NCBI GenBank assembly: GCA_902728285.1 | Contig: CACVBU010001377.1 | Location: 496,001-560,000 of the forward strand | Reading direction: 5' to 3' | Length of the DNA: 64,000 nucleotides | DNA from: Clytia hemisphaerica | Taxonomy: Eukaryota > Cnidaria > Hydrozoa > Leptothecata > Clytiidae | In this document: piece after piece, positions 3,238 to 53,300 of the stretch | How positions within the stretch are numbered: position 1 is the first letter of the stretch | Layout: each line of letters opens with the position of its first letter | Translations under genes and position numbers: made by a program | Notes under the pieces: model-generated | Seen by the model: only the letters and a program-made list of their open reading frames with translations | What the model was told of the DNA's origin: nothing | Database searches by the model: none

Positions 3238-4873
3238 TGTTGTTTTACAAAGTGTTTTGGTATGAGTTTGTGGATTTGATTGAAACCTTCTTTTGTTCTG
3301 TGCTTTTATTTGAAACACTCTCTTTTTCTTCCTATCTGAGTTTGACTGGTTATGTGGAAGGATCTCTTGGTTTTCTCTTTAGAGTCGATTAACTTTCCTT
3401 GTGATAGAAGCTCTTTGTAGACTCCAATAGTATTGTTTGGTTATATGGAAGAGCTCTTCTTTGGTTAATGAATTTTCCTAGTTGTACAAACTTTTTGTAC
3501 ACTCGAATGATGTTATGCGGTTTAAATCACAAATAACTAAGTCGGTAAATAAATACGATCCAATGTAAAAAATATACAAGTCAAGAGTTGATAAATCTTG
3601 ATATACGGTTTTTACCAAATGTAAAATGATGAGCAAAATAATCCAAAATTTGAAAATAAAAAATTCAAAATACTGTGCAGCAATAAATCCGAAATGCAGG
3701 ATTGAAATAAATATACAATATCGGTCAAGCCAATGTTAAAAAGTATTTACGTTGAAAAATAAATAAAAATTGTTGAGAATAAAATAAAGAATGTTGAATT
3801 TAATGTCTATTTGGTTTGTCACAATTCCTTGAACAGCGATTGCTGAAGTTAAGAGATCCTTCCAACAAAATTACCAAATATGCTCGTGTCATTCTGAAAC
3901 CGGAAAAAAAGATGAAAATGAGGTATTAGTTCTTAGAAGTTTCATTTCGGCAGAAAATTGGCCGTTAAAATCTTTGTTTGAAGATATTGAATAAAGTCAT
4001 TGCATTGACGTCAAAATAGAGAAACATATTGTCTTTAGACTTTCTGCCGGCTTACAAGTTAAGAGAAGAGAAGAAGAGGCAGGGCATAAAGTGTAAGGAG
4101 GGTGTGTGAGGGATGTGACATAAACTAAACAGTGCCGAAAGATAGAGAGCTCAATCTTTTTAAGCATGAATATAATTTTTTACAATTAATTTCATCATGC
4201 TGTGGTCTCCAGGTAATTAATGTAATCATGTAATCATAATACTTTAATGAAAGCATGTATCAATAGCATATCTTTTCCACACTTTTTTAACCTATGTGTT
4301 TTCATGTTTCAAAGAAATTTTTCTTCAGAAATTTCAATTATGAAAGGAATCTTCATGTAAGATTATACAACCTACATATAATAGAAATGCACTCCTACTA
4401 AAACACCTCTTAAAGAGTGTTAAAAACAAGACAAATTAAAGAGATGTCTGGACAGTATATTTTTCTACGAAATCTAAAAGAAATACAAGGTCAAAGTTAG
4501 ATTAGTCTAGAGATAACATTATGACAATGTCCATTTTGAGCCATCCTCTTTCAACACAGAAAAAAAATACTTCAAAAAAACGTGACAAAGAAGAAAAGAA
4601 TATATGTTTCTCGTTTACTTTTTAAATCATGTTTTTATATAGGACTGTAAATCAGTAAAAATACTCTCAACGACCATTTATGCTTTATTAAAAAGGTATA
4701 CACTGTTGGAAGGATATCTTTGAGTAGAATAACCTAACCGGTTAAAGAGTTTTGAAATATTGAACAATATGAAAAATGAAGATGAAAATTAAAATAAAAA
4801 TATTTGAATCTCACGAACTCCAAATCTATACCTAAATATTCAGATTTTTCATATCATCCTTAAGGGCTACATA

Positions 4874-14682: not shown

Positions 14683-17600
14683 TCAAGCTGATAAGAATTC
14701 ACCATCAAAATGACTGTTCTTTATCCCTGTTGGTGATGACGAAGTCGGTCCAAACACTTGGTCCATTACATATGCATCATTTGTTTGATTGATGACGTAA
14801 TTGTGATTATGATTGATGACGTCACCATTATGTTGCCTGGTCGATGTTGTTCGGTTTTGTGCAACATACGGATTAGATATTCGCTCCTCAGATCTTTTAG
14901 CCTTTGAAATGAATAAAGTTAAAATTATGATTTTTTTTACTGCTTGTTAGTATATATCTGTTAAACTTGAGATAAGCTCTGCTAAAATTCAGGAGGAAAG
15001 ATACTTGCAACTTTACTTGGCGCTTTCTAATTTGACTCCATTATGCAATAATTTGAAAATCATTGTCAACAAGAAACTCTTCTAAGCTCTAACACTCAAT
15101 GTGCACCCGTATTTAATGAAAATCCAATGCCCTTTAAAAATGGAACTAGAGAACACCAACTATTTTTTTAAATACATTAAAAACTAGGATAAAAGCATCA
15201 AATCAAAGACCGTAAAATCAAGCTAGTATAAAATATGTTCATTAAAGAAACACATGGTACCGGTAGAAAAGACTTGATCTACGATTATATTATAGGTCAA
15301 CCCCGTCCCAGTGTATTCCAGGCTTTATTTATGATTGTCGCCAAAGAATATTATCTAGCGCTATCATTAAGCATAAAAAGTGGATAATGAGGGAACGAGG
15401 TTGATTAAAGGCTACCTGTTCATGAATTTGGATAACCGTCAAAGGATAAATCACGCATATCACAATATCTTCAATGACGTTGCCTTGGATACCATCTCGG
15501 TGCCGTAACTTCGTTCTCAGCTGACTCGTCATTGTGACGAAACCAATAAAGAACGCCCATCCAAGATTGTTGATATAGAGAAATCGAAGCCGCAAAAATA
15601 ACAAGATAATGCACAAATAGAATGGAAGCGCGTATTTTACATATTTGAAAACTCTTTTCGCTCGGGATTTCATTCTCCTCTCATTGTTTGCGATGTTACC
15701 AAGGAAATACCAAGGGGCTATGGTTGCTATCGAAACGTTTTTGAGACGTTGGATGGAGTTAATATTTCCATAAATCATAGCCCAATGGTTGAGTTTGTCA
15801 TACGACCAGTTTGGTTCCAATTTCAACAGTCTAAGATAAGTGGATGTAAAGGATTGCAAATCTTAAATATTATTTTTCTAAGACCCTTTCTTTGGTTGAC
15901 AGTTGTAATGTTATGGTGTGGGTGAAGTATATATGCCCCCAGCGGTTTGCGTGAATGCGTGAAAATTTAAAAAAATTGCGTGAATGCGTGAATTGGAAAG
16001 CTTTGCGTGAATAAAAATTGCGTGGTTAATTTCGAAAATATATTGCGTGAATGCGTGAATTCGGGAATCTTAGAAGACTTTACCACCAAAAACAATTTTC
16101 CTATAATCAAAATTTATTTTTTTAGAAAGATTCTATTTCAAAATGAAGGAGAAACATTTTTACTTAATCCTGCATAAATGTATTTCTTAAGTCTTCCATG
16201 GTTTGCACCAACTCATCTCAAGAAAATATTTTTAAGGAAATGCCTAAAGCTAAAACCAAGTTTTTTTCAATGTGCCAGGAGCCCGATTAAATTCCCTCCT
16301 GTCTCGCTACCCCTGTTTATAAAAGCTTTATCAAGACATAATTCAATACAGTGTCTAATCGTATCTTGAACCATGTTCAGATGTCACGGCTTTATATCGC
16401 TCCGAAACGAAACGGCTCCGAAACACTGTGTGAATATCAAAACTCGAAGCGTCAAAAAAGAAGACATTACAAAGCAAAACAGATCGAAACAGTTTCGATC
16501 CACTTTTTTCATCGGAGCGGGACTGCTCCGAAACGTTCCGAAATCAGTGTGAACACTTCCTATTCGTAACTAACACCATATAAAAACAATACGAAAACTT
16601 AACTTAGACTATGCTCAGACGTTACGGTTTCGTACCGCTCCAGTGTTGTACGTGTCCGTTCCGGAGCGAAACGGAACGTAGCGTGTAAAGGTGGTCTGAA
16701 CATGGCCTTGGTAACAGAATAAAGAACTCACCTCCATAATGCGACCGCAGAAAGACACAACAAGATAGCGAATGGCAGACCGGCTAGGATTGTAAATCCA
16801 GTGATTTCTGCCCTCCCAACTCTTTCTTCGTAAATGAGAAGAACTGATGTCACAGCTGCTAGAGTGATGCACCAAAATATTCGTTGGATCAGAGGAGGCT
16901 TCTCTTCGCCTTAGGAGAAATAGTTGGAAACAAAGAAATAATAAACAGGTAGAGCTTTTAACTTAGTGAGTCGGAAGGGCTTATTTCAAAAAGTAACTTG
17001 GCGACGTACCGTCGTTTTTTATAAGTCTCCCATTTCTGCACTAAGATTTTTGTCACTTTTCCGAAATCTTTATGCTATTTTTTCCGGGATAACCGGAAAG
17101 AGATTGAAGGGGGTTTGTTTCTAAAATTGCGGAAAACCTTATGCTTACTAACTAAACTGCCTAACTTTCCGAAGCTCATTTTTTAACTACCCGAAGTCCT
17201 GGTCTTTTTCCAATGAAAATATGGCAAAAGAATCTTAGTGCGGAAATGGGAAAAGGACGGTACTGTAAAGATCCATTGTGTATGTGTAGATTTTACTACC
17301 ATCTAAGCTCAATCAGGCTATATCTGTCAAACTAAATTTGCCTCTAACAAAATATGATTTAATAGCATACCATAGTGATTCTAAAAATAGACATCAAATT
17401 TACTGTTTGTCCGAGTTTTAATCCCATCATCCTTTTGATTTCGCAAGTCAATTACACTTATTGGCGATACAAAAGTAATAGCTTGCACGCATTATACGAA
17501 TCAAGATGAAAAGGATTGTGGGATTGAATTTCGGTCAAATGTTAAAAGTAATAATTATGACGTTTGCATAGCGGTGTGCTATTCGAAACTCGCATATCAA

Positions 17601-20600
17601 TAAAATATGTATGAAAAAAAATGTCGCACCATTGCTGGAGATACTCCCCATCACCAGGGCTGCAGAATCAAAACTTGTGATGAAATACAGTAAAGTGATC
17701 AACAAAGCGATAATCTGCAGAATGATTTTGATATCTTCGTACTTCTCCAAAACAAGAAAGAAACGTCGGTTTTCATCTACGCATCCAAGCCGCTGCACCC
17801 AGGTTGGAATTCCCAAATTTTGTCTTTCAGCTCTAAAAAGAATATTTAGGAATTCAGACATAGTATGTATAAGTAAGTCTGCGAACGCAGTCGGAGGCAG
17901 CCCGGAGGCTCCTCTTTCGATAGCTGTCTACCCGAAGGTAGGGGAGGTAGCCACTCTTTCTCCCTGGATTGCTCCACTTATCCTTGATTCTTCCCTTGCT
18001 TGCTGAGCATCAAGCAAAGAGGCATCAAGTACCATCTTCAAGTCTTTGGTATGACCCAGCCAGGGATTGAGCCTATGACTTTGCGAACCGTAGCTGGATG
18101 CTCTATCTTTAAGCTATGACCGCTATAAAATATAGTGTATATCATGAATGCGTATATATAGTCCCTATAAAAAACACCGGTTCAGAAGCTTTTTGTTACT
18201 TTCCATTGTTTCGTACTTGAACTTGCGTTGAGAAATGAGTTTGCTTTGCTCACTTTTTGATCATGTGATTGAATCTTAAACCAACCCCAAGAGGAGTACT
18301 TGGTAACGTGATCAAAAACTTAGCCTGGATATCCAGACCGTAAACTATTTCACCGTCTAGTTTTTTTATAATCTTGTCTCTGGTTTACGGTCTGGTCGAA
18401 GTAACTCGTCTGCAGGGATATCTGTCCCTGCATATGCGAGTGTCTCTAATTGGTCAGTAAGCGCCCAGACACTGAGCAGAATTTTCGCGGGGTTTTTGAT
18501 ATTTTTCGATGCGCGCGCATAATTTATGGAAAAAGCTGACCTTGCAAAAAAAGATAAACAAATGAAAAAGAAAACACAAGTTCATTTCTAAACAAAATGG
18601 CCGCTGGAAAGGAGCCTTTATGAATGTGGCTGATGCTTTGATGTACTTTAAAGTGGTTTTGAAAGTTTATTGAGTTTGTAAAAGAGGTTTTATGGTAAGT
18701 AATTATGTGTGTCTGCCTGGGTTTCCAAAGTTTTGAGATTCTGTCAACAAGGGTTTACTCACAGACTGTGTCATTCAAAACTGTATCAGACTTTTTTAGT
18801 TGCACCAGACTCTAAAATTTTAGAAACTTTGTATGTTGAGGTAAGAGTTTTTTTTTCTGAAATTTTGAGTCTGGATACCCAGGCTATCAAAAACTGTGCA
18901 AATCGATTTTTATCTTTTGATATTAACAAAGGAAACAGCTAACAAAAAGTTAAAACGCTTCCAGACCAGGGTTTTTTATAAGAACTATGCTATCGACTAG
19001 AGTATAAAAACATTTTTTCAACCAGTCGACTCGTATGCTTGGTACTTGATGCCTTCTTCTACTTTTAGGCAGACAGCCATGAAATCGCCCTCGCTCTCGA
19101 TATAAAGCTAAGCTCATGGACTTCCGTGCTAAGTTTGATTAGCTAGATTCTCCATATTCTCCACCTTCAAGCGTAAAAAGAATTCAAATTTGCCTCATTT
19201 TCCCAAACAAAAATAACAGAGGTTTGTATAGGAAACATACGTTGTCATCCCACACTGGAGATTCGCATCAATCGCTTGATTCTGCATATCAATGGCCACT
19301 CCACCGATCACAACAAACCAAATGAAATTACAAAGAATAGGTATGAGGAATCCAAATTCAACAACATTCTTGATGGTTCGGCCTTTACTGATTCTAGTGG
19401 CAAATATAGCAACCAGTGGTGCCCATCCTAGCCACCAGCCCCCTAGAGATTGGTGATAGAGGTTGGTGAATAAATAGAAAAATTTCATGTCTTTTAAACT
19501 ATGAACCCCTTCTTACCGACCCGGTGGGATTTTTTCAGCCAGTTTGGGTAAGAATATCGGACCAAAACTCGATAGGGATAGATATTCCCACGTTTTTTAT
19601 GGCTGGGGATTGACATTCCCATGTTTTTTTTTATGATTGGAGATTTGAATTCCATTGTTTTCGACCTAGAAAATTCAGGAGAAAATACCACAATATTTTG
19701 CAGTGAGGATTTTCTTATTTGATGATTTTCAGCAGGGACAAAAATATATAATTAAATATAAGTATAGTTTTCCATTGGGGACGATATTTTGGTCAATTTT
19801 TCCAGTGGGAAGGGGTCCCAGTGGGTCTGTGAGAAAAGGGTGTAAATTTACTTTTTCATCCAAACAAAAAAATTACTGATTTGCTGAAACCCTTTGCTGA
19901 TCCTTGTGGTGAACATAGGGACTAGCCCCATGAAATAGTTAATGTTAAATATTTTTATCCAAATTTGACCAATTTTTATAGTTCGTTCTTAACCAATTTT
20001 TGTTGCAACGGCGTTGTTATTGAGATGTCGAAAATCTGCGAAGAGATGACGCAGGGAAACTGATATCAAGCTTCAAGACAGAAACCACGACTATTGTATG
20101 TGAATGAAGGTAGAAAGTCTATCGCCATATTTCCCGAACACCCTGCCTGGAAGAGCTTGAGATTCGAACACAGTCCATTGCGGTGAAAGTCTGTGATCGA
20201 AACCTTCAAACTACCAATCGGCTTAGTAAAGCTCAAATTGCAGATGTAGAATGATAAACTCGGTATACACGACTATTGTTTTTTAAATGCTTTTCCTGGA
20301 AAATTGTGAGCTCTGTCTGATTGTGATATTATCAAGGTCTTTTAAGAAAATGTAACACGGCGTTAATAGGGCTGGACTTCAGAAATATTTTAAGTGATTC
20401 TTAGAGCATAATCTCCTTATAAAAACCTTTTTTCTGAAGACAAGAGACTGAAAACATCTTACAGTAAAACACAGTGTCTATCCATTATTTCCATTATCAT
20501 CGTTAAATTCTGACCTCTCAGAGTCACCATTTTTCGACCTGTTTACCCCCTGTTACCTCATTTTACCCCATCTCGCCCTTAGTAAGAACGCAAGCTACGA

Positions 20601-23600
20601 AATCTGTGACCATGCATCCAGAAGGCGGGACCTTACCCAGAAAGACGGTATCTAAACACGAGGGATGAGACTGAAGAAACAAAAGCATTGTCAATGATCC
20701 TCGGGAACTCACTTTAATAAAAGAAGACAAGAGAAAACAACTTACAGTAAAACACCGTATTTTCATGCATCCAGTTAATCTCAACATCTGTTTTCCCAGG
20801 ATAATTTCCTTGTTGAAGAAAAGCACCAGTAAAAGTGGAAGTTCCCACAAAAAATTGAGTATAATGACCGATAGATTGGACAGCCAGATTTAACAAGTAG
20901 AAAATGTTGTCACTTAACGCTATTGTGATAGTAAACAAAGCTCCTACAAAGAAAAAGTAAATTGTCAATTTCTTTAATGAAGAGGTTCAAAATTGATCAT
21001 TAAGAGGGGTTTTTTTATAAGGCTTGAAATCTACAACAGATACAAAGATCTGTTAAAATTAATAGGAATTCCATGGGGGTAACTTTTTAAATCCTTCAAA
21101 AATTCAGAATTCAAGAGAGGTTTGAGCCTTAAATTGCCTGGAATTTCAAGGGGTTACAGTATTTCTAACAACAAAACTTTGGACCTCCTCAACAAGTGGT
21201 AAACAGTTCTTTTCTGGAAAAGCCCATAAAATAAGAACGATGTCAACTATACCTGTTAAGAAACAAAGTTGAGACATTCTTCTGATGCCGATTTTAATGC
21301 CACTTAAGGCTGAAATCATGGATAACCCGGTCACAGCCCATAATGCAATGAACCTGAAACATTGCAAGAAACAACGTTGGACGAATGCGTTAAAATAATT
21401 GTACGTTCCAACTTTAAGTTAAGGCGCTTAAAACTACTTGCAATTGTTAAAATTTTGCAGGGAAATTCCCTTTGTGCCAAATATAATAGCCCTAGTCGTA
21501 AATACTAAAGATCAATAAATAATTGAGACAACACCGCGCGGGTTACAGGCAGTGATTGTATACAGGTTCACCAGTGGACGTTTGGCTGAAATAAAAGCTG
21601 CGTATGACCGCGTGGAAAAGTTGGCGAGAGGTGCTGATTTTAGCCCTTCCAACCGACAATTCTTTTTTCTATGCAAACCTAGCTCTTGCGCTCGCTTTTC
21701 CTGCGTGATATCTTTCCAGCCCAACTGGTGAGCCAGTCTATTTTCTATAGTATTTGTTTATTTCTAACCTTGTTGTTCGATTGTTTTCCAGTTCAGGGAC
21801 GATACTTTGCAGACCGACGACCAGCATAATGGCGCCAAGAATGAACGACGTGGACACGCCGAAACCGATACAAATTAACGACACGCTGTCGACGATATCT
21901 CCGAGACGTCCGAATATCTTCTTTCCGAAGACTGGGTATAGTGATGAACGCATGGTCAAAGGTAGACCTTAAAGAAAACAAAAAATCGTTGAATTGAAAC
22001 ATTAGATATCCTGGAGCTACAATCAAAGTCATAATATTTGAGAAAAAAAGGGAAAACCCTACGAAATCTTACAACCACAAACGATTTGGAAGCGCTCTAA
22101 ATTAGGTTGGACAGGTAGAGTTTCAACTCTGAGTTTTAACGCTAAACTTATACCTTAGGATCTGAGGAACTAAAAGTCCAAGAATAGTCCAATAAGGCTC
22201 AGAATATAGCCTAGAAGTCTATAAACCCCTCCCGAATTGAAATATTCGAATAAATTTATCAATTTGCCCAAAAGCGACTTTTTTGCCCGAACTTTAAAAT
22301 TGCTGAAAACGAGGAATTAAGCAAAATTCCAAATATATTTTGACCGTGATTGTAACATCTTTCAACATCTATTCAACTGTCTTACCGTACTTTTTTTTGT
22401 ATATTATAGGTGACTTACATAAATTAAGACGGTTACCATATAATACCACGCACAGAAAGTGAAGTTGTGAACAAAGCAGTCTTTTGACCTACACTCAGAC
22501 CTTATTTTTTGCTAAATATCTAAAATAACTGTGCCTTTCTTATGAAAGAATATAATGCTATTAACAAAGTGATCTCTATAATAGCTTCCAGAACATATAG
22601 CATACCCAACCTCGCTTCCAGCGTTGTATTGGCTTTTTGATGCTTACTGATAGCTTCATTCCAAATAATAATACGCGCCCATCAGTTACCGTAAGTTGGT
22701 CTAATGTCGACATTCCTCTTCTAATTCCGACACCCTTCTTTAGAGATGGGAATAATATGGAAGGTTGGGATCACTTATAGACAAAATATTTTTCTTCTCT
22801 GATTGCTAAGTAAAGAAAATAGTTTCCATCAGCGATTCCAACATTCTGATTATTCCTATCTTTAAAGAAGGGTGTCGAAATTAGAAGGGGATATCGATAT
22901 TAAGGCCGGTCTCTACTTGCACGCGGTGCGATCGCACGTTTTGGCTTCAATCCTATTTGCTTGTAAAAAAGATTACGTCTTAAAAATCTAGCGCGCGCTC
23001 GAAAAAAAGTTGAACACATTTCAACTTTTTTCAACCGTTACGTCAGATCACGCCAATGGAGTTGCTTCATTTTTCTTTTGACCAATAGCGTTGAAGCTTT
23101 GCTCGAAAAAGTGCGATCGAAACGCGCGCAAGTGGAGACCGGCCTTTAGACTAATTTACGGTACGTAAATAAGAGCTGGGGTACAAAGACTGACATTGTA
23201 TACTCACCCTTTCGGTAACAAAGAACGGATAGTAGAAGACATGGAAGTATGTAGACACTGAATCCATGAAATCCCCAATGAAGAAGAACCACATTGAGAG
23301 AGTTCTGTGCTTGTGTGATGTGATTGCTCCTGAAAAAAAGAAAGCATCATCAATAACCTCGTTCCCGTGTATTCCAGACTTTATTAACGTTAATGATTGA
23401 CGCCAGAGAATATTATCTAGCGCTATTAGTAAGCATTAAAAAGTTGATACCTTATCGGCAAAAACTTAGTCGGCCCTTAGTGACTAAATTTTGCCTTGGT
23501 GACTAAGATTGGGGCCGACTAAAAATTTGGGCCGACTAAAATTTGGGCCGACTAAAAATTTAGGAATGGCCAAAACTTAGTTATTAGTCGGCCCTTAGTG

Positions 23601-26600
23601 ACTAAATTTTGACGAGGTGACTAAAATTAGGGCCGACTAATAATTAAGGCCGACTAAAATTAAGGCCGACTAAGTTTTGGCCAATAAGGTAATACGCAGG
23701 GAACGAGGTTGCATCATCTTGAGATCTTTAGCGGAGGAGACTGGTAACAAAACTTAACGAGCAAAATTGTAGAGTACTGGACATACTTCGGTCTAAAGTG
23801 AAATATAATCTTTACTTAACGAATAACATTGTCTAAAGCATTGAAATATGTCTGAACTCTATAGAGGTGTAAAGACGTATTGAATTTTCTGAGGCACAAA
23901 GACAGGGGTTTCTAAACCACTCATAGATAAGGATGTTGAAAAACGATAACACGGAAATAGGTGTATCTGAGACAAAAAAACATTAGTTTTGAGGCACAGA
24001 GAAGAAAATTGGCGAGAGATGTCTTAGCTCTAGTTTAGACGGCTCACCTTTCACCCTGCCTATTCTAATTGTAAGAGTAGGCACAAAGCGGCCACAAAGT
24101 GGGCAGTTAAATAAATTACTTTGAATTGAATTGAATTGAATAAATTCTTTACTTCAAAAAGGTTGAAAGAAGACATTGACGTCAAAAGAGGGCAATGCAT
24201 TGACTTTAGACAGCCTACTTTATGCTCATCTTAATTGGTCAGCCTAAGCTGAGCATTCAAATAGGTAAAATTTTCTTCTTCTACTACTTCTTCCACCATA
24301 AGACGGCAAAAAAAAATCCGATTTCCCGATCTCACTTTGATTTCTAAACTTTCTTCCGATCGGGTTAACTTTTTGGGTACTTTTAGCGTGCGTTGTTTTT
24401 ACAGATCATAATGTGGTGTTTCAAGATGGCGGCTCAAGCGATAAGTCAGATGTGATAAGTCAGTGCTGTACCAAAGTATTTCCAGTGTAAATCTGTTGCA
24501 AGCTTCAATTTCTGTCATTTATTTTTTTAACTCGGCAAATCAAACACATGATTTTCATCAAGGGGATTCTTTTTCTACATCTTTTGAAGGTTTAAAGCCG
24601 TTTGCTCAAGTTTTTGTTTATGATGAATTTTCTGATACTTTTTATTGCTGCTTTTATCAGTTTTTGCAATAAAAACATATTTTTCTTGTTTGCCTCTAGG
24701 TGGGATTGATGGTGTTATAATGTTATTGGAATTTGATAAAGTTTACAAAAGTACAGCTACTGTCTAAATTTGATAAAGACTGGATGTAATTGTGCTTTTT
24801 TGGACTAAGGCGAATCGCAGAAAATTGTTTGGTTCCCGTCATTTCTACTTTAAAAAGTGGGGGTCATTCGGTTGAAAATATTTTTCTTTTAAGAAGCAGC
24901 TACTTATTGTTGAAAGGGAATCCGTCGTGTGGACTGATCCGAATTAAGAAATTGAGAAACCGTGGATAAACTGGTTTTCGGTTTACTCTCCATTAGCATG
25001 TGGCTCGCTACTTCGATTTGAAAACTTGTAAACACAGAGCGTGCAGAGGTCGACAGTGGAAATCCAGCAAAGCAGCGGAAAAGCTTTCCGACTCTCCAAC
25101 TCTACCTGCTGACCGTAAATCAGGGTCGGTCAGATGACGGGAACCAAATGATGACATCACATTTCCTATTATTGGACTTGCAAAATTATGACAAATGGTC
25201 TTTGGAATTTGATCAATTATATTAATATTAATATATACAGTTCTTGTTGAAATTGATCAAACTATTTTTCATGCAGTTCCGGACGCAGATTGTGTTTTTC
25301 TAACCTTTCCTAACCTTGGAGCACCTTTTGACCGAATAATGGAATGGAATGAATGGCGATAGTTTATACATATCTCTTATCAGACTTGCAAAAAGCGGAC
25401 TGCAGAAAGTTATGAAAAATGGTTTCTAGAATTTAATGAATTATACCGCCAAGTTACACAACATGCACACTCGTCACAACTTGCACAGCCATAACAAACA
25501 GATCCATCTGGTCTTCATTTAACATTGTTTTAAAGTTTAAAAAACACTGCCAGTGCTTGGCACAGAAGAGAGGACTCCCAGTTGAAATTAATTGCTACTC
25601 CGCTGCCCTGTTGAATTTATTTATTATGCTCGTGTGTTTATTCCGCCAAGGCAGTAAAGCGATCGCCCAAATTCATAGACCAATTAAAAGTGAGTTTAAA
25701 GCAAAACGGGGGAAAAATGAGCTTCCCCGCATAGTTATGAATTTTAAGTTTTGCTTTCGATCATCATTTGCGACCGGCAAAGTCTTCAAGATGGTTGTGT
25801 GCATGTTGTGTAACTTGACGGTACTAAACTACAAAATTTATTTACGCAGACTGGATGCAAATTGTGTTTTTCAAGATTTTGTGATTTTGCTTCAAGTGCA
25901 AAGTAGATATCTTTATTTTGGTTCTGACGTTTTGCGGCAATTTTCTTATTTATTTCTAGCATAACACTAACACTTTGGTCAGATATGGATATTGTCTACA
26001 TCCAACAGAAAAAATGTATCATAAACTGACTGTAATGAAATTAACAAAAAGTGCAATTACACTATGTTTCTCTTTTATTTTACAGTAATGAACTATAGCT
26101 TAATTGTTTGATGTCATAGAAACAGTGCTACAATGCTATAAAGAGAAATATACTTTGAGCTTCTCGTGGCGGATGTATTTGGAGGAGCTCTCAGGCTTGT
26201 TTTAAATCAAGTTATCAAATGTTTCACATTTTGTACATTATTCAACATTTTTAGTCTACTCTGTTTCAGTACATCTCTTACATCTGTTAACCCACTTATT
26301 AAAGCTATCTAGCTAAGCTCTATTGGCTGACCTTCCAGCCTCGGCTGGTTTATTCACAATTAGAAGAGGCAAGGCGAAAAGTGGGCCGTCTAAACTAGAG
26401 CTTACTTTCCACGATAGATGAGCAAGTTGTCTGTGGTGTTTCGATATCCCACAATGGGAGCGTTAGCACCATCATAGAACAATCCATTGCATATTCCGGT
26501 GGTGAAAATCATGGCAAAGTAATCGAAATTCCCATATTCTGGTTTGTCTGTGGATAGTCCTGTGATGAAATTAGAATAAAGAATATGATATCAAGTACTG

Positions 26601-29327
26601 TAATAGTTTAGACGGCCCAATATTTTTCCTGCCTATTCTAATTTTGAATTAAAGTAGACAAAAAGTTGGCCGTTTCTGGTCTAAACTCTTTTGACATTAA
26701 TGCAATGACTTATCTCAATCCTTTTCAATTTAAGATTTCAACTCCTTGCCTCTTTTTGCTAGCTTTAACGATAAGAATAGACAGGAGAGAGTCGGTCGTC
26801 TAAACTAGAGCTAAGTCAATATAATTGAGTTGAATTTGAATTGAAGGTCGGATTGGTTTTTTCAATACTCTTTTCATGGAGTTGCGATACAATCTTGACG
26901 ACTAACAGGAATTGATCATTGAAAGTCTATATGTGTGACACACCCAGCTGGCACACAACGTTGTTTCAACGTTCGTCTAACGTTATATGGACATTGTGAA
27001 CGTTAGATAAACGTTGAAATAACGTTGTGTGCCAGATGGGCATAATATGTACGTTTTGTATAAAGGTTTGGCCCACTTGCTAGATATTTGGTCTCCTCTT
27101 ATGAGACTCTGGAATTACTCAAATTAACCTCCCATTTTATCGAACACCTCTGTCTCACAGCCCCGGTGGAATATTTTTCCTTAGTGGGGACAAAGATTGC
27201 TATACAAGTCCCAATGGGGATAGAAATTCAATTCATTTTAGAGTACAATTTTTAAACATTGAATTTCGAATGGGGATGAAATCAAAGTGAATTTCCCAGA
27301 GGGACTGAAATTCTAGGGTATTTTTCCACCGGGGACGAAATCTTTAGATAGAGTCGATAATTCACGTGAACAGTCCAGTAATCTAGGACTTTTAGACAGT
27401 CTTTTGATTGTTTTCACGGGGTCCACGGCCATCCGACTCGGCTATCTATGAACTGAACGGAACAATGGAAGGAGCGGGGATTTGAACTGCGAATCCCTGA
27501 TTTGAGACGCTGACGCTTTTGACCACTTGGCCATCGCTCCATATTTGCCAAATTTTCTAGTGGGGCTGGGGTCCCAGCGGGAATGTGACACAGGGGTGTT
27601 ATTGAGTTAAAACTTACCTAGTTTGAGTTTTCCATATTTGAAATAAACGTAGAAAATGACAATCACCCAAATCAATTGGCTGCTTATGTAGAACCTATGG
27701 TAAACGAAATATTAGATTGATTCAACCTCGTTCTCGTGTATTCATTGTTACTGTTTTGACCCCTAAATTGCTTGTAATTTCAAGTAAGCGATTGTACCCT
27801 CCAAGAACTCATTAACTATTCAAAGAAATTCTATTTTTAAACTATTTGGGATGTCTTTTATTTTCGTAGAGTAAATATTAGAAAGACGGGTCGGCAATAA
27901 ATGTTCAAAGGTCTTTTTTAGGTCTGAAAAATGGTTCAAGATACGAAAAAAATTACAATTCGACGGTCTAAGAATTTGGTTCGCCACCTCAAGTACATAT
28001 TCAAGCTAATCAATACAATGGACTTGCTAAGAATAGGCCGGTCTAAAATCTATAATTTGCCGAAGTTAGATTTTTCATTCAGAAGTCTATCAAAAACAAA
28101 GAAAACCCGACCTGAATGTTAGGGGCTGAACGCTGAAATGAGTTAAAATTTGTTATCAAATTAAAGAATTAAGTCTACACCTCAGACAAACGAAATTCTT
28201 TATTCCTCAGTCTTTAATCCTCAGGTGTCTTACTCGCATATTTCTGTAAAGCCCGAACGGCTAGATGGAGCGCTTTGGCTAAAAAGTGTGCCGTGGTAAG
28301 GTAGGAAATCCTACTAAAGTTACGTGACATTACAATAGGATTTCAGCGCCTGACCAATCAGAAGCTTCGCGCATTTTCAAAAAACAATATCAACAATATT
28401 TTTTGCCATATTCACTTTTTTTTTTTTGGAAAATCTTAAAGCATGCCATCTAGCCTTCGGGCTTTGAAATCTGTGATCCCTGTGTGCCAGCTGTGTTCTT
28501 ACCACGTGCACTTATCAGTGATCCATCTTCTAGCAATATTGAAATGATCCAGACTAGTTTTCCAATCAGCGATCGCCCAGCCTATAACAAGCCATAATAC
28601 TAATGCGCCAAGCAGAGATGACAAAGGGTTGAAATTGAGATGGATTTTACCAACGCTGAATTTCAACCTCAAACAACTGTAGACAAAAGAGAATTAAAGA
28701 AATTATCAGGAGGGAGTCACCAAGCTCTGCCAAGCGCAAATTTCAGTTTTTAATTGATTTTATTAATTTACGAATCCATCTTCACGTTTTCTAGTGTGTG
28801 GAAGTCCACCAACTATTACACAAACGAAATGTTTTGGCATACGGCCACAGATATTAATCCTAAATTTTACATTTTTCATTAATAATGAAGACATAACCCT
28901 GTGTCACAGACCCGGTGGACCCATAAGTGGAAATTCTATCAAAATGTGGCCCTTGCGGGAAATATTCCCTACAATTTCACCCCCACTGGAAAATCGACTT
29001 TAATTTCTCATTTGAATTCCAATGGCAATTTTCCGAGCTGGAAACTGATGAATTTCTCCATTATTCGATATAAATTTGAATCCCAAAACTGTCGGAAAAA
29101 GTTTCACCGGGGTAGTGATCCTAGCTGGCACACAACACAACGTTGTTTTAACGTTTTTCTAACATTCACAACGTCCATATAACGTTAGATAAACGTTGAA
29201 ACAACGTTGTGTGCCAGCTGGGGAGACAGAGCCTTACTTACAGTGACATAAATTCAGCTTTTCGTCTCACGAGGTGTTTTTCATCCATTTCTGATGGCTT
29301 TTTATTTGTTCCTTCTATTTCCATCAT
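14683..29327 (-). CDS. BCCT-family betaine/carnitine/choline transporter, 13 exons, complete
   Basis: Thirteen exons join in phase into 775 codons plus stop: 29242-29327, 28503-28676, 27618-27694, 26406-26559, 23208-23329, 21769-21967, 21253-21353, 20746-20943, 19241-19442, 17630-17832, 16732-16909, 15416-15830, 14683-14901. All introns are GT-AG; the exon-10 donor (GTGCGA) is the weakest. Family marks seen: NPLSSLLG in TM1 (exon 2), KPEYGNFDYFAMIF before TM3, HWGFHGFSVY (181-190), the RLGDIVD and GFGVSTSF segment of exon 6, the Trp box W371-x-W373-W374-x-x-W377 split across exons 8/9, RISKGRTI (387-394), and the TS pair in YFITSFDS (490-491), which binds Na+ in bacterial BetP. The glycine stretch of TM3 is altered (GICNG, 134-138). 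After the core, exons 12-13 add ~210 residues with further hydrophobic segments and a polar Asn/His-rich tail, longer than bacterial members. Likely a plasma-membrane osmolyte carrier; substrate and ion coupling are not shown. ATG ATG starts the frame (29327); the second Met is an alternative start. Confidence 0.93.
15298..15403. repeat. MITE family 5, copy 2
   Basis: CAACCCCGTCCCAGTGTATT at left, GGGAACGAGGTTG at right. Its right end is 12 bp from BCCT exon 12 (donor at 15415). Confidence 0.7.
15940..16075. repeat. Short repeat of TTGCGTGAATGCGTGAA units, copy 1
   Basis: Three pairs of GCGTGAATGCGTGAA separated by AT-rich spacers; recurs at 32895-33015. In BCCT intron 11. Confidence 0.7.
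17006..17264. repeat. Inverted-repeat element (TIR GTACCGTC...)
   Basis: GTACCGTCGTTTTTTATAAG at left; CTTAGTGCGG..GGACGGTAC at right. Related words (CATTTC.GCACT.AGATT, AATCTCATGCCGGTTATC) recur near 7120-7220 and 45990-46400. In BCCT intron 10. Confidence 0.55.
17880..18127 (-). repeat. tRNA-derived SINE (minus strand)
   Basis: Read on the minus strand from 18127: A-box TAGCTTAAAGATAGAGCA, B-box GGCTCAATCCC, then a Pro-rich, CT-rich body containing an inverted CTACCC..GGGTAG hairpin. It lies in BCCT intron 9, 48 bp upstream of exon 10. Confidence 0.55.
18321..18885. repeat. Inverted-repeat element with 10-bp flanking direct repeats
   Basis: Ends TAGCCTGGATATCCAGAC and GTCTGGATACCCAGGCT; ATCAAAAACT occurs at 18311-18320 and 18886-18895. 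In BCCT intron 9. Confidence 0.7.
22030..22350. repeat. Dispersed ~300-bp repeat, third copy (reverse)
   Basis: Reverse-oriented match to the copies at 12950 and 33190; shares AACGATTTGGAAGCGCTCTA and AAGTCTATAAACCCCTCCCG. In BCCT intron 5. Confidence 0.65.
22907..23151. repeat. MITE family 1, copy 2
   Basis: Perfectly recognisable inverted ends: AGGCCGGTCTCTACTTGC at left and, reversed, AGGCCGGTCTCCACTTGC at right, each followed by a CGATCGCAC block. About 245 bp, in BCCT intron 5. Confidence 0.85.
23351..23711. repeat. MITE family 5, copy 3, with nested palindrome
   Basis: CAATAACCTCGTTCCCGTGT at left and GGGAACGAGGTTG at right, with GCATCAT on both sides as a likely duplication. It contains a second element at 23451-23689. 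It starts ~20 bp upstream of BCCT exon 5. Confidence 0.75.
23451..23689. repeat. Palindromic element made of GGCCGACTAA units
   Basis: Ends TTATCGGCAAAAACTTAGTC and its reverse (GACTAAGTTTTGGCCAATAA). Inside, GGCCGACTAA recurs about seven times and a ~120-bp half is tandemly repeated. Confidence 0.75.
26943..27040. repeat. AACGTT palindromic element, copy A
   Basis: Near-perfect hairpin of ~96 bp from CCCAGCTGGCACACAACG to CGTTGTGTGCCAGATGGG, with AACGTT hexamers about every 11 bp. In BCCT intron 3. Confidence 0.85.
27466..27540 (-). tRNA. tRNA-like sequence, probably pseudogene or SINE head
   Basis: On the minus strand: acceptor GGAGCG paired with CGCTCC, a D-arm GGCCAAGTGGTCAA of the Ser/Leu type, a T-arm-like GGATTCGCAGTTCAAATCC, and a near-terminal CCA. 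The anticodon stem does not pair well and no long variable arm is visible. It lies within a repeat copy in BCCT intron 3. Confidence 0.35.
28248..28465. repeat. MITE family 6 (TIR AAGCCCGAAGGGCTAGA), copy 1
   Basis: AAAGCCCGAACGGCTAGATG at left and CATCTAGCCTTCGGGCTTT at right, in BCCT intron 2. Confidence 0.75.
29122..29222. repeat. AACGTT palindromic element, copy B
   Basis: TAGCTGGCACACAACAC.. to CAACGTTGTGTGCCAGCTGG; lies ~20 bp downstream of BCCT exon 1 in intron 1. Confidence 0.85.
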
Positions 29328-34085: not shown

Positions 34086-34836
34086 TGATTGTACCCGTTA
34101 AATTTGTTTTATTTATGAACAATTCTTTCGGATGCCGATAATTTTGATCAAGAATTTAATTTAATTCCAAAAGAATGGCACACTGAACCAACAAAACAAA
34201 ACATGATCTATTTAGCGTCCTATAGTACTGAAGGAATAAAGGAAGAAATTTTGGAGGATTTCAAATTAATTTTTCTCCAACATTTATTTTTTGTGCCCTC
34301 CACTAAATGAAATTTCCACCACAAATTTATCTATTCAATGTTTTTTTCCAAATTCGAGCTATTACAGGTATTTTTGTTTATTTAATAACAATTTTATTCG
34401 AAAATTTTTCTCTACCACCAAATCAAATTCCTATCAAATTTATTTTTCCGTATTTCCGTCAAAATTGTCATCACTCAAATTAAATCTCCGCCACAATTTT
34501 GTACCCAATCTTTAAAAAATCAAGATGCACCTAACCATTGCCTATAAACCCCAGGTACAGAAAAATGATCTTGAAAGAGAGGGAATACTAAAAAGCCCGA
34601 GGGGTTAGTTATAACACAGCTAAAACTATTAGAAAATAACGGTAATGAAATTAAAATTTATTAAATAAATCATAGACAAGACGAAGGTTAAATGAAAATT
34701 CAAAATGAAAATGTTAAACTATTTAAGATGTTGATCTTTAAAAATATTACGTGCTGATAAAGTCAGTGAGCCAGATGTGAGAATTATTTTATTCCAGAAA
34801 TTAACAGAGTGCAAAACCAAAAGATAAAATGGAATA

Positions 34837-35009
34837 CAGTTAATGCTCTCTAATTCGATCTTCAAGGGGAATTGGATTTTCATCGAATATGGGAGGTTAT
34901 CGAATAATAGAGCGTTGTTTATGAGAAATCTTGATGACTTGGGCTTTAAATTTTATCGAATAAGGAAGCGTATCGAGTAGTAGAACGTCGAATAAGAGAG
35001 CATCAACTG
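34837..35009. repeat. Tigger/pogo-like MITE with TA duplication
   Basis: CAGTTAATGCTCTCTAATTC at left, GAGAGCATCAACTG at right, TA on both sides. Close relatives at 36275-36435 and 51945-52112 share the CTCTCTAATTCGA words. Confidence 0.65.
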
Positions 35010-35077
35010 TACTTTAAGATAATTCTATGGCAGGAAGATTTGATGTTGTAATAAATTATGACGTCATTTTGTGTTCT

Positions 35078-36247
35078 TTATTTTCCTGTATTTTTCCTGT
35101 TGTTGTGTTTGCTTAGATCGCTTAGTCTGATGATTTGAACTTTGGGCTTCTTCTTCTTTGACGTTTCTCTTCGGACGCGGTCGTGGTGGAATGGGAATGA
35201 GTCAGCTTCTGATTCTTCGACGAGAACTGGAATTCGAAGTGGTGGGCGGGCAGTGCTGGCTGCTGGTGCACATTCTAAAAGGAGGAGATGGAATAAAATT
35301 ATTTGTTAAAAGAACATAATTAAACTTATACACGTTTTTTATAAGAACAAACTATATAAGAACATAAGGCTTCGATGGCCAAAATGTTTAGAACAAGTTA
35401 AGAATATTTTAAGGCTTTGTGGGCTCTAAAACGGCCAATTTCTTAAGAAAATGGACAATAATACTCACAAAATGGTGAAAATAAGAACATGCTAAGAACA
35501 ATTTTAGGCTTAAAAAATCTCAAAAAGTTAAGAACATCCGAAGGTTTCAAAATTTTTGGATGTTTTGTAAAAAAACGCGTATCTCCTACCATTTGCAAAT
35601 ATCAGTGCTTTTCAATAAAAGAAAGGATGCGAGAATCGGTACTGCTCCATGCTGTGTGTTAAGTCATGAATATCTCTAAGCTACCATAAATTAGGACCTC
35701 AACCCTCATCTTTAACTGGGGTCTGGGGAAAGTCTATTTAAAAAACCACTCCAAGTGAGAAAATAGCCTGGCATCTAGACTATGCTATCGTCCATTACAG
35801 TCATGTAAAGGCGGGAAAATATGGTGGTATGGCGTTATGGTGGTATCTTCGAATTTTGCGAATCTTCTTCGGCTTTGGGCTTATTTCTTAGATAGTGATT
35901 TGTCTTAGACTTTAGTATAGTCCCAGCATAGTCTACCTAATATCTTACATCCCCCGTAAACAATAGAATTCGAAATTCCCATAAATTTAAACAGGCGATT
36001 CTCCGCAATCAGTATTTGGCTCCTTCGATCCATCCACAACGTTGTTTCAACGTTTTTCTAACATTTGCAACGTCCATATAATGTTAGATAAACGTTGAAA
36101 CAACGTTGTGTGCCAGCTGGGTTGCTAAACATTTCGTTCTCATTTTCTAAATGAGACAGGGAAGAATTACCCTCTTCACAAAAAAAACTACTGACCGTAA
36201 ATTGATGCTGCCAATAACAATGCGAGTAACAGGTACACCTTCATCAT
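35078..36247 (-). CDS. Small secreted basic peptide precursor (82 residues), unrecognised
   Basis: Two exons: 36196-36247 (17 codons plus one base; donor GTCAGT) and 35078-35274 (acceptor TTTTAG), joined in phase through a Glu codon. The start ATG ATG (36247) directly follows a pyrimidine-rich tract ending in CAG, so a 5'-UTR intron probably precedes it. The product opens MMKVYLLLALLLAASIYE, a textbook signal peptide. Then comes a Pro/Ala-rich segment with a single Cys (CAPAASTARPPLRIPVLVEE), an acidic stretch and DRVRR, a furin-type site (about residues 49-53). The C-terminal 29 residues are basic (ETSKKKKPKVQIIRLSDL and onward) and end in NTGK, where trimming of Lys could expose Gly for amidation. 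AATAAA overlaps the TAA stop. I recognise no family. A peptide hormone, neuropeptide or cationic defence peptide is possible; that is inference. The frame could also be an internal part of a longer gene. Confidence 0.6.
35330..35582. repeat. MITE family 2, copy 4
   Basis: Both ends are readable: ACACGTTTTTTATAAGAACA at left and TTTGTAAAAAAACGCGTAT at right. About 250 bp, in the intron of the small secreted peptide gene, ~55 bp upstream of its second exon. Confidence 0.8.
36031..36122. repeat. AACGTT palindromic element, copy C (left end trimmed)
   Basis: CATCCACAACGTTGTTTCAA to GTTGTGTGCCAGCTGGG; in the intron of the secreted peptide gene, ~75 bp downstream of its first exon. Confidence 0.85.
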
Positions 36248-38289
36248 CTGAAAAAGAAAAAGAACCTGATATTAAAATTGATTCTCTCTAATTCGATCTT
36301 CAAAGGGAATTGGATTTTCATCGAATAAGGGAGCGTCGCTTATGAGAGTTTCTTGTTGACGGGGACTTTCAATTTTATTGAATAATTGGAGCCTATCGAA
36401 TAGTAGAACGTCGAATTAGAGAGCGCTAATTGTAGTTCTTTAAGGGAGTCAGAATTATTGAATCGCCCCAGTTCCTGGAGATTTGTTGGCCTTGTTTTTT
36501 AGTGATTCACGCTAACTTGATCCGAAAAACTGTATGTAAGTGTCTCGCATCTGGCAGGCAGTATAAACTACAGCGTAAAAAGATAATAACAAGATGACTC
36601 CTAGACAGCTCGATACAAAACCGGGCATCATGTAAAGTAACCTGAGATCAGATTGTGAATGTTTTCTGCACACCACGTTGAAGCTCTAAAAGGATGTGTG
36701 GAAATATAACAATCTGACGAATATGCTATCTCGAAATCGTAAGGACCGCGTTCGTCTAAAAGGACTTGGAACGACAACAAAGTTGCGTGATTGTGTTTAT
36801 GAATGGGGCGCCGTATCTGTTTTTGACTTTCCGGCGCACAACAAGATTCTTGTTGTAGAATCTTCCGCGACAGCTGTTATCAGGTTAATGTAATGTGAAT
36901 CTAACCATCATCACTGATGGTAAATTCAGTTACATATTTCTGTGTTCAGGGAACTATGGTATGACGGAGAACGATCTAATTTTCACTGAATTTTTCCTAC
37001 CAATTACTAGTACATACTGTTTACCAAAGGCAAAAGCTTCTTTGTGAAATCGTCATGCTTTTGTACGCTTTGAAAAGATTGTTCATATTCATTGGCTCAA
37101 AAATCACCAAATTTTGTTCCCCAATCAAAAAAGGGAAAAGAACTTTCCAAGATTCTGCTGAAAAATCTTTAATCAATCTGATTGTTATTCTAGCCCGGGG
37201 TCCACTTAAAGCTTTTTTTATAGACTGGATGGCGTGATTAAGTGGTCCGGTAGTATATGGTAATATGCTTTTGCTTAGGCGAAACAGTCTGCCAGATTTT
37301 AGTTGTTTTTGGAAGGTAAAAACAGTATAAAGCAATGTTTTTGTTTGAGAATAAGGGATTGCAAATCTGATGTTTGTTTCTCATGTTTGATTGTATCTTC
37401 CAACTCCAAGTAGTTATTTGGATTTTTTAACATTTTCTCTCAAAATGGCGACTTCGCCAAACGCTCCTAGTCTAATTGGTAGTCTAGTAATCTAAGCGAT
37501 AAACTTTGTACAGGGTCTAGTTTATTAATGCTTTTGTTGCTGATCTGAAATTTTAGAATTTTGTAATCTGAGTTTTAATTTTTTAATTCTCTTAAATTTT
37601 GAGCTTGAATTCCAAGGCTATTTGACTGGTAGGATCCTCTGAATTCATACGTGTTAAGACTTGTTGATTGGTCTAATGACATGTTGACATCCATCATGTA
37701 ATTCCGTCACCCTTCAAGATAGGATTAAAAGGAAGGTCGGAGTCACTAATTGAAAATAAAGATGTTTTCCACTCTGACCGTTTAGTTGCGATTCCTATTA
37801 ACCCTTTGTGTGCGGTGTTTTTTCGAAAATGTTGAAATTTTTCCTAAATTTATTTTTTGAAACTCAAAACTTTAAAGTGCCATAAAAGATTGTAACTTTT
37901 GATTTAGAGAATATCCTTGTTACCATTAGAAAGCTATTTTTATATTCTTTCTTAAAACATTTGGTTTATGCATCTTTAAATCAAGTGGTCAGGAGCTATA
38001 GCCTCAAGTCTATGACTAAGTATTTTAGCTTGTTTTTGACGCATATACGCGTCCCTCGTGGTCTAAGAGTTAAAGAAGGGTCGGAATCATATGAGAGATG
38101 TCGACATCAGACCAACCTACGATATTTGATTGGTCTAAGGAAATGTTCTTTCTCTTTCTCTAATTGGTCTAGCGTTGAACCAATCAGTGGTGTTCAGAAA
38201 ATAGATTGGAAAGTCGAGCAAATTCACGGTACATATAGTCAAGATTTTAAGTATAGTTTTTAAGGATATGTATATCATTTGCTTAGTTG

Positions 38290-50318: not shown

Positions 50319-53300
50319 AATCTTACAATAGACAAACAATCAATATAAATCTACAAATTTAGCGGAGAGAAAACCGGTAAGTGAATTTAAAGAAAGTTGA
50401 GAAATAAATAGAAAGCGGATAGATGAAGACCAAAGTCTGGCATCAGGTGTGGCCATGAGTAAGCTTGCCCTGCTACTCTAGAGTCACCCGTCATCTAACG
50501 AAAGGTTAGAAAGTGTTGCAATCACAATCTAGAAAAGAAAAGATTTAGAAAGAAAGACGCATAATCGAAGAGTTTGAAAAGTTGGCCCAGAGCCCGGTTC
50601 GGCGTGCCGTATCCGAGTGGCCGTACGAAAGGAAAAGAAGAAGGAAATGAGGACTTCAAACAAAAAACACACAAATTTATATCAATACGCGTGAACTTCT
50701 TTAACCAAATTTTTTTACTAATGTGAGTTGCTAATTCACATATCCTGCAAACAAGTGGAGCGCTACCAACCACTAGACTTTCTAAAAAGTTCAAACGAGA
50801 CATTCACAATTTTCAAACTAAAAATGTTAAAATAAAACGACAAATCCGATAAATGTTTTAGATGATGATGATAATTAAATAAAACTAGAGAAGACTTTCT
50901 AAGAATAGTGTTATATTGCTAGCAAGGGGATGGAATACCTGCTGGCGTCCATATATTTTTTTCAATGTCTTTTGTAAACGAAAGACTCTTCCGCCTTGTT
51001 TCAAAGCACGGTCCATTAAAACTCTACCCGCCAAGCTAAAATTTTCCAAAGATGAACTAACCCGTGCTATCCGGATGATTTCAGCACCAAAACAAGAGTA
51101 AAACATGGTTGAAGGCAAATTACTAGTGCAAAAAGGAAGACGTACAATCTCAAAGGAAAAACTGTCCCTCCCTTTTATCAAAAAGTCTAACATCTAGACG
51201 ACCGTTGATGTTTCTCAATTCAATGTCTAAAAAAAGTAATTCGATCACCAGAACTTTCAAGATTTAATTTTAATTCTGGAGGATAAATTGACTCAAAATT
51301 TTCCAAGAAGAGATTGTTATCGTTGATGGTAAGAAGGTCATCTATAAAACGAAATGTGTTGCTAAATCGTCTGGCTTTTTGAAGATTTTCTTTTTTCAAG
51401 CTCTTGATCCACTTCGACTCAAAATGATAAAGGAAAAGATTAGCCATAAATGGGGCTGGGTCCGACCCCATCGGTATCCCAATGATCTGACGAAAAATAT
51501 TAACCCCAAAAGTGAAATAACAATTCCCCATAAGATATGAGAGGGCCTCCTTGAAAAGATCTTTTGAAAATTTTACACCGGCATTACTTTTCTTTGTCAC
51601 CCATCTTGCACTAGTACCAGAAACAGAAATTAGACTTTCAGCTTTGTCATATCTTGATTTTAGAAAAAAAGAGCTAAAATCTTTGGAGGTTTTTCCCGAG
51701 GACTGAAGATGGTTTATTTGTGTCCAAAAAATGTAAAAAGGACTTGTAACAATTCACAGTTCAATACACGACGAAATGAAATGTGAATTGCTTACCTAAC
51801 TAGATTTTTGGTTTTGATTCTTGGAGCTTTGACACCACCACCAACGATGCTTGCACCAGTAATGAAGATTCCACTGAGAGAATAATTATGCGAGAAGTCA
51901 TCAACTCAAAAAGTTTCACAACTCACTACAGTTTTGTTTAGTTCTACAGTAACTCTCTCTAGTTCGAGCCTCTATAAGTCGAATCTTTAAACTGTAATTC
52001 GATCTAAACCAGCTTAAGATTCTCTGTAATTCGAACCTTTTCCTTATTCAAAGAAAAATCTTTGACCCTTTGACGTTCGAATTAGAGAGAGTTGAATTTG
52101 TTTGGCTGTACAAAAAAATAAAAACTTGAATCCATATCAGGGCTTTCACTAACCACTTTTTTCGGTATTGGCAAATTGAAACCGCAATAAAGTGAGCCAA
52201 AAATTTGTGTGGGATTGATGCATTATTCATATGTTTACATGTCATGGGTATTATTCTGCTGCAAAATGATGCTTTTTGGTTAATTTTGGATCTTATCAGA
52301 TCTTATATTCATTTCTATTATTTTATCATCATTGAAACAGAATCGTAATGCAATAAAGTCTGGTATTCAATGTGAATGTTTGGTGTGTGTGAAGTTTAGA
52401 AACTTGAAACTGTATGATTAAAAACCAGGCAAAAAATACTCTTGACTTACAAAGCAGCTCCAATAACAGAAAGAGCAATAGCCAGAGCGATCCCAATGGA
52501 GGCCCACATATAAGGTGATGTACGACCTAAAAACCTAAAAATTGTATAGAAATCCAATAAGAATGAATCCAATAAAATCCTGCATTTTTTGTGAGAATCA
52601 CTTAAACTAAACTTAACAAGGTTGTACATAACATTCCGCTTACTATGTCAGTATGATAGCGTGGCAGGAAATCTAATGGAGGCCAGTCCTGGCCAGTCAA
52701 ACCAATTTTTGCAATAATGGTTATTTAAAAAAAAAAATGTACATTCCAACCAAAGTTGAAATGTAAGGATTCTGGAAAATCTAGAGCACCCTTGATGGCT
52801 AACAACTCATTCCTTCCAGGTACTTTCTCTTTGGTGGCCAAAAAGGGGACTTTTTCCAGTGTTTTTCCACTAAAAAGGCTGTTTTTACCAATATTTTAGT
52901 AATTTCAAGAGAGGTAGCGTCTGATAACCGGCCGCTTAAAAGACATGAAAAATGGCTTGCCTTAATCATTTTTGTTATTGTATAATGTCAAGCTTTACCC
53001 ATGATACGTACAACAACTTGTAAGAGGTTAGGTTAAAATATTGTTCGGAAAACAAAAATGTGCTATGTTCCATATTACAATAGGTATGTTCACTTACCAA
53101 CCAATATCAAAACGCCCTCCTTGGCCAGTTAGTGTGTAATACAAACCTACAAAGAAATATAATGGAGAAGAAATTATTCCAGAGAATATTTATCTATTGT
53201 CAACCCAAAAAAATACCAGCGTTTAGATTGGTCAAGAGCATCGAAATATTTGCGTTATTTCATTTTTTTTGTGGTATTTCATAATTGTGACGAAAGTATT

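Follow-up and report, generated by a model that had tools for sequence, protein, structure and literature searches.

A candidate two-exon gene for a short secreted precursor with a basic tail in Clytia hemisphaerica

The minus strand of the window (the whole 64,000-nucleotide stretch of Clytia hemisphaerica DNA analysed here) carries a two-exon candidate gene that exceeds chance expectation and is probably real. Its predicted product is a precursor of 82 residues (MMKVYLLLALLLAASIYECAPAASTARPPLRIPVLVEESEADSFPFHHDRVRRETSKKKKPKVQIIRLSDLSKHNNRKNTGK), in which a signal-peptide-like start is followed by an acidic pro-region, a furin-type site and a basic tail. Our preferred reading, held tentatively, is that this is a real, probably lineage-restricted gene, found once in its genome, encoding a short secreted Clytia precursor that would be cut to give a basic effector peptide.

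Structure of the candidate gene

An earlier note on this DNA had described two in-phase exons giving 82 residues, with an RVRR site, a basic 29-residue segment, a KKKK run and a terminal Gly-Lys. Joining the exons in phase 1 and translating them from the coordinates below reproduced that product, and all of these elements are found in the translation; the strand, which had gone unstated, is minus. The features are:

36248..36260, minus: acceptor-like site TTTTCTTTTTCAG adjoining the ATG, from AG-site scoring of the window
36196..36247, minus: exon 1, with an ATG ATG start, 17 codons plus 1 nt (MMKVYLLLALLLAASIY) and the signal-peptide core
35275..36195, minus: intron of 921 nt, phase 1, with GT at 36195-36194 and AG at 35276-35275
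35078..35274, minus: exon 2, with the end of the signal region, acidic pro-region, RVRR, basic 29-residue tail ending in GK, and stop
35168..35179, minus: RVRR furin-type site, residues 50-53
35080-35078, minus: stop codon
35077..35082, minus: AATAAA, a possible poly-A signal overlapping the stop codon (the next one is at 34793)
39594-39557: alternative first exon MMKFLVFLEFLS, with a further start at its second Met
36033-35948: alternative first-exon frame within the intron, with a further start at an inner Met

Exon 1 begins like a signal peptide by a simple hydropathy rule. The precursor contains one cysteine in total, and none lies in the 29-residue tail that follows RVRR, which holds the KKKK run and ends in Gly-Lys. 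By splice-matrix scoring there is no usable donor within exon 2 (best score -3.3). We therefore read exon 2 as the terminal exon and rejected a larger protein with more exons. Possible alternative first exons for exon 2 lie within about 6 kb, with four starts in two places. The gene had been called invisible to simple open-reading-frame calling; exon 1 has 17 codons, but exon 2 by itself shows up as a frame of 75 codons from stop to stop.

The intron includes a dispersed repeat (35326-35400), which matched at least 42 other places with 40 of the 235 first-look candidates scored. By eye, a short element (ctctaattcgatcttcaa...) also occurs twice around the candidate gene: the copy at 36285-36440 lies upstream of exon 1, about 40 bp away, and the copy at 34849-35010 lies downstream, some 70 bp beyond the stop.

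Scans, splice sites and codon use

We scanned for two-exon secretory precursors, using a hydropathy rule for the signal and, as strict thresholds, the candidate's own splice scores. Such thresholds were set post hoc and the matrices behind the splice scores are generic ones, so that the counts are guides and not probabilities. The strict scan of the window returned one model: the candidate itself. The control set of 1576 order-3 Markov shuffles, scanned on both strands, gave 198 strict models (0.126 per window; counts are printed means multiplied by 1576), of which seven had an RX[KR]R site and one had a strong acceptor no more than 60 nt upstream of the ATG. Under loose thresholds the window held 4 models against 0.92 per shuffled window; loose shuffle models with RX[KR]R came to 0.029 per window and those with an upstream acceptor to 0.003. 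Real sequence from the same genome (220 kb, 22 loci) yielded three strict and five loose models. One of these has RX[KR]R and by eye falls within an adhesion-GPCR-like frame; a strong acceptor upstream of the ATG is present in none of the models from these loci.

That acceptor is the single sign that weighs most for a gene. Directly before ATGATG, TTTTCTTTTTCAG comes first when the window's 6853 AG sites, both strands included, are ranked by score. The boundaries of the intron itself are moderate: the donor is in the top 3.9% of GT sites on the minus strand, and 161 of the 6853 AG sites score as high as the acceptor. Exon 2 has a GC content of 0.467 versus 0.355 for the window, a level that 2.6% of 197-bp windows reach.

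Codon bias gives moderate support to exon 2 as coding sequence, and this support varies with the training set. We used 12 hand-chosen training frames (2927 codons): eight picked by eye outside the window, and four Pfam-matched frames inside it (600 codons), two of which, both MFS matches, fall below Pfam's cut-off. For the ranking, the remaining frames in 284 kb that run to 55 codons or more served as comparison. Exon 2 ranked 9 of 1252 with all 12 frames, where it was first among the window's non-training frames, 11 of 1256 with the eight outside frames and 24 of 1260 with the four Pfam-matched frames; it is thus in the top 2% with each of the three sets. Compared with other frames of the same DNA, exon 2 leads under 12- and 8-frame training (0.18 versus at most 0.13 bits per codon), the two other minus-strand frames scoring 0.09 with stops unpenalised. 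Under 4-frame training another minus-strand frame beats it, at 0.131 versus 0.038 bits per codon. The proposal of a two-exon secreted precursor is accordingly supported by the scans and the ranking of AG sites, and moderately by codon bias.

The predicted peptide and known systems

The two halves of the precursor differ in charge. Net charge is -4 before RVRR and +8 over the 29 residues after it, so that RVRR falls at the border of an acidic and a basic half. Furin processing at this predicted site is plausible from the motif. C-terminal amidation of the putative peptide is weakly grounded, because it would depend on one terminal Gly-Lys without GR, GRR or GKR flanks, and an amidated 27-residue product would require an internal Arg-Lys to be left uncut. 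Of the furin site and possible amidation in the earlier note, then, RVRR is present and the lone Gly-Lys offers less. An exon-by-exon search of the genome for the amidating-enzyme domain gave no match, but the control genomes gave none either, so that this null result carries no information on amidation.

We took membrane-active character as a mark of basic peptides of the antimicrobial peptide (AMP) type, and the tail does not show it: its hydrophobic fraction is low (0.17), and its whole-tail hydrophobic moment is no higher than in shuffles (p 0.25-0.70).

Searches for relatives returned little beyond the candidate. Against its own genome the protein matched itself (E 1.2e-38) and one chance sequence (E 3.8); we rejected the latter as a paralogue, since by eye it is a coiled-coil-like frame, with a stop within the match. 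The protein search thus found no paralogue in the genome, at a sensitivity that very diverged copies could escape. There was no Pfam match up to E 1 and no PDB match up to E 10, which agrees with the absence of a recognised family in the first reading of the sequence. Ten animal peptides showed no similarity beyond shuffles after correction for ten comparisons (the best, CRH, had p 0.0125 uncorrected), and the candidate's peptide strings occurred in none of the open-access main texts searched. The candidate gene is probably lineage-restricted.

How does this precursor compare with those already described? According to the excerpted text of PMC8638164, cnidarian preprohormones hold peptides flanked by GR, GRR or GKR, mostly in several copies, and single-copy precursors exist. 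Like the hydrozoan amidated preprohormones (GRFamide, GLWamide, PRXamide), the candidate has a signal peptide, a basic convertase site and a Gly before a basic residue; unlike them, it would give a single long product without GR- or GKR-flanked repeats. Indeed, no copies flanked by GR, GRR, GKR or GKK are present, and one terminal GK is all that is found. Neuropeptides isolated from cnidarian model species are 4-10 residues long in the passages of PMC9545775 used here, and the 29 residues after RVRR exceed this, though further cleavage could shorten them. The neuropeptide layout suggested earlier is therefore not that of the usual hydrozoan form. The same genome does supply an example of the standard layout: an RFamide preprohormone exon (976-1815 of a locus on contig C507) encodes 17 copies of QWLNGRFG and one of QLVSGRFG. 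These counts equal those published for the Clytia hemisphaerica precursor, with seventeen pQWLNGRFamide and a single pQLVSGRFamide (PMC8638164, in excerpt); nowhere else does the main text of that paper contain this motif.

Comparison with cationic defence peptides is more favourable in part. Most Hydra AMP precursors are described in the cited sections of PMC10945409 as having bipartite charge, a cysteine pattern and taxon-restricted occurrence, and as typically multi-copy; the same paper reports that homologues of these Hydra families are absent from Hydractinia and Clytia. Arminins are described as ending in Gly and as presumably amidated, and placozoans, too, have been proposed to possess arminin-like precursors whose C-terminal Gly would serve amidation (PMC12013895, likewise excerpted). 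Likened by description to arminins and periculins, the candidate is a small, probably taxon-restricted precursor with a signal peptide and an acidic half followed by a basic one; unlike them, it has no paralogue in the own-genome protein search, low hydrophobicity and one cysteine. The suggestion of a cationic-defence layout thus holds for the charge split, but not for hydrophobicity, amphipathicity or paralogues.

A third comparison is with proteins of Clytia itself. PMC12225738, as far as its excerpts extend, describes short secreted proteins in Clytia larvae for which no relatives were detected outside Clytia, and an orphan of the candidate's size is therefore unsurprising in this animal. 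Like PF1 from the same source, the candidate is short, secreted and without recognisable relatives outside the lineage; unlike PF1, which has several genes and conserved cysteines, it has one cysteine and no paralogue in the own-genome search, the comparison again being by description.

Interpretation and neighbouring sequence

It is unlikely, but deserves weight, that there is no functional gene here and that a chance open frame has been joined to a chance signal-like exon. The intron's donor and acceptor are only moderate, homologue searches of the genome, Pfam and PDB were empty, codon support moves with the training set, and the rate of about 0.13 strict models per shuffled window implies hundreds of chance models across the 417 Mb genome. 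Against this, the best acceptor of the window sits at the ATG, a codon score in the top 2% persists under all three training sets, and models with a furin-type site or an upstream acceptor are few across the 1576 shuffles (7 and 1). If the gene is real, its product might instead work whole, as a matrix, adhesion or gland protein in which RVRR is incidental and left unprocessed. We consider this rather unlikely. Basic motifs would arise easily in a tail rich in Arg and Lys, and short secreted proteins of Clytia and corals may, as has been suggested, take part in larval adhesion (PMC12225738, in the part cited); the placement of RVRR at the acidic/basic boundary argues for a processed precursor. 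Were the product not processed, it would be another relative-less short secreted protein, a class known in Clytia and coral larvae from the same excerpts.

Two more specific proposals concern signalling. That the gene encodes a single-copy hormone or neuropeptide precursor, whose long amidated product would belong to none of the known hydrozoan families, we regard as very improbable. The sequence does contain a signal peptide, a convertase site and a terminal Gly-Lys, and the excerpts of PMC8638164 include precedents in a single Hydractinia pQPRGamide gene and in Hydra Hym-176. Moreover, the survey in that paper, as excerpted, used a script for at least three copies (multiple GKK, GKR or GR motifs) and TBLASTN with known peptides, and a precursor like this one would for that reason have been missed. 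The 4-10-residue length of isolated cnidarian neuropeptides, the 18 copies in the genome's own RFamide precursor and the lack of corrected similarity to the ten animal peptides all speak against this reading. Somewhat broader, and improbable rather than very improbable, is an undescribed, lineage-restricted leptothecate peptide: furin would divide a single-copy precursor in two, the acidic part serving as a mask and the other, basic and amidated with about 27 residues, acting outside the cell as a signal or in shaping microbes. A survey based on repeated copies would miss such a precursor.

We return to the preferred reading, a lineage-restricted secreted precursor cut to a basic effector. Here the pre-mRNA would be spliced, in cis or in trans, right at the ATG, and the protein would enter the ER. 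A furin-type convertase would cleave after RVRR in the Golgi, the acidic pro-region masking the basic tail meanwhile, and a linear, cysteine-free basic peptide would be secreted; this peptide might then lose its Lys and become amidated on Thr. In hydrozoans, leaders are added to some mRNAs by trans-splicing (PMC11067881, in excerpt). The acceptor next to the ATG may accordingly serve trans-splicing, or, with equal likelihood, the cis splicing of a 5'UTR. With low certainty, the likeliest use of the peptide is as an extracellular effector that works through its charge at the surface of an epithelium, in defence, microbe shaping or glycan binding, rather than as a classical neuropeptide. If real and processed, the product would give a model jellyfish a secreted peptide that is long and encoded in single copy, a kind for whose detection at least one published survey of hydrozoans (PMC8638164, judged from its excerpts) was not built.

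Several observations concern the surroundings of the candidate and other loci of the genome. Exons of a BCCT (betaine/carnitine/choline) transporter (16728-28693, minus) follow the candidate downstream in the same orientation; this transporter had first suggested a copepod, a source that the RFamide and mitochondrial evidence contradicts. The Pfam matches to it are:

19195-19512, minus: BCCT, E 6e-19
17535-17927, minus: BCCT, E 1e-6

Further BCCT exons were seen by eye only, at about 16.7, 20.7-21.9, 26.4 and 28.5 kb. Two minus-strand frames, 15329-15862 and 23151-23435, share the motif CL(M/L)IALDNILWRQS and are possibly a duplicated membrane-protein gene next to the BCCT exons; a PLAC8 match in the first frame is weak and falls short of Pfam's cut-off. 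By eye, a reverse-transcriptase-like frame at 51220-51753 (minus) resembles Penelope-like elements. Outside the window but on the same contig (C940), about 3858-4625 of locus L019 looks by eye like a nanos gene and includes a pair of CCHC zinc fingers. The code in which AGA is Arg and TGA is Trp is that of cnidarian mitochondria; in the genome's own COX1, located at the end of a 14.5-kb contig, the conserved arginines appear only when AGA is read as Arg, with TGA as Trp.
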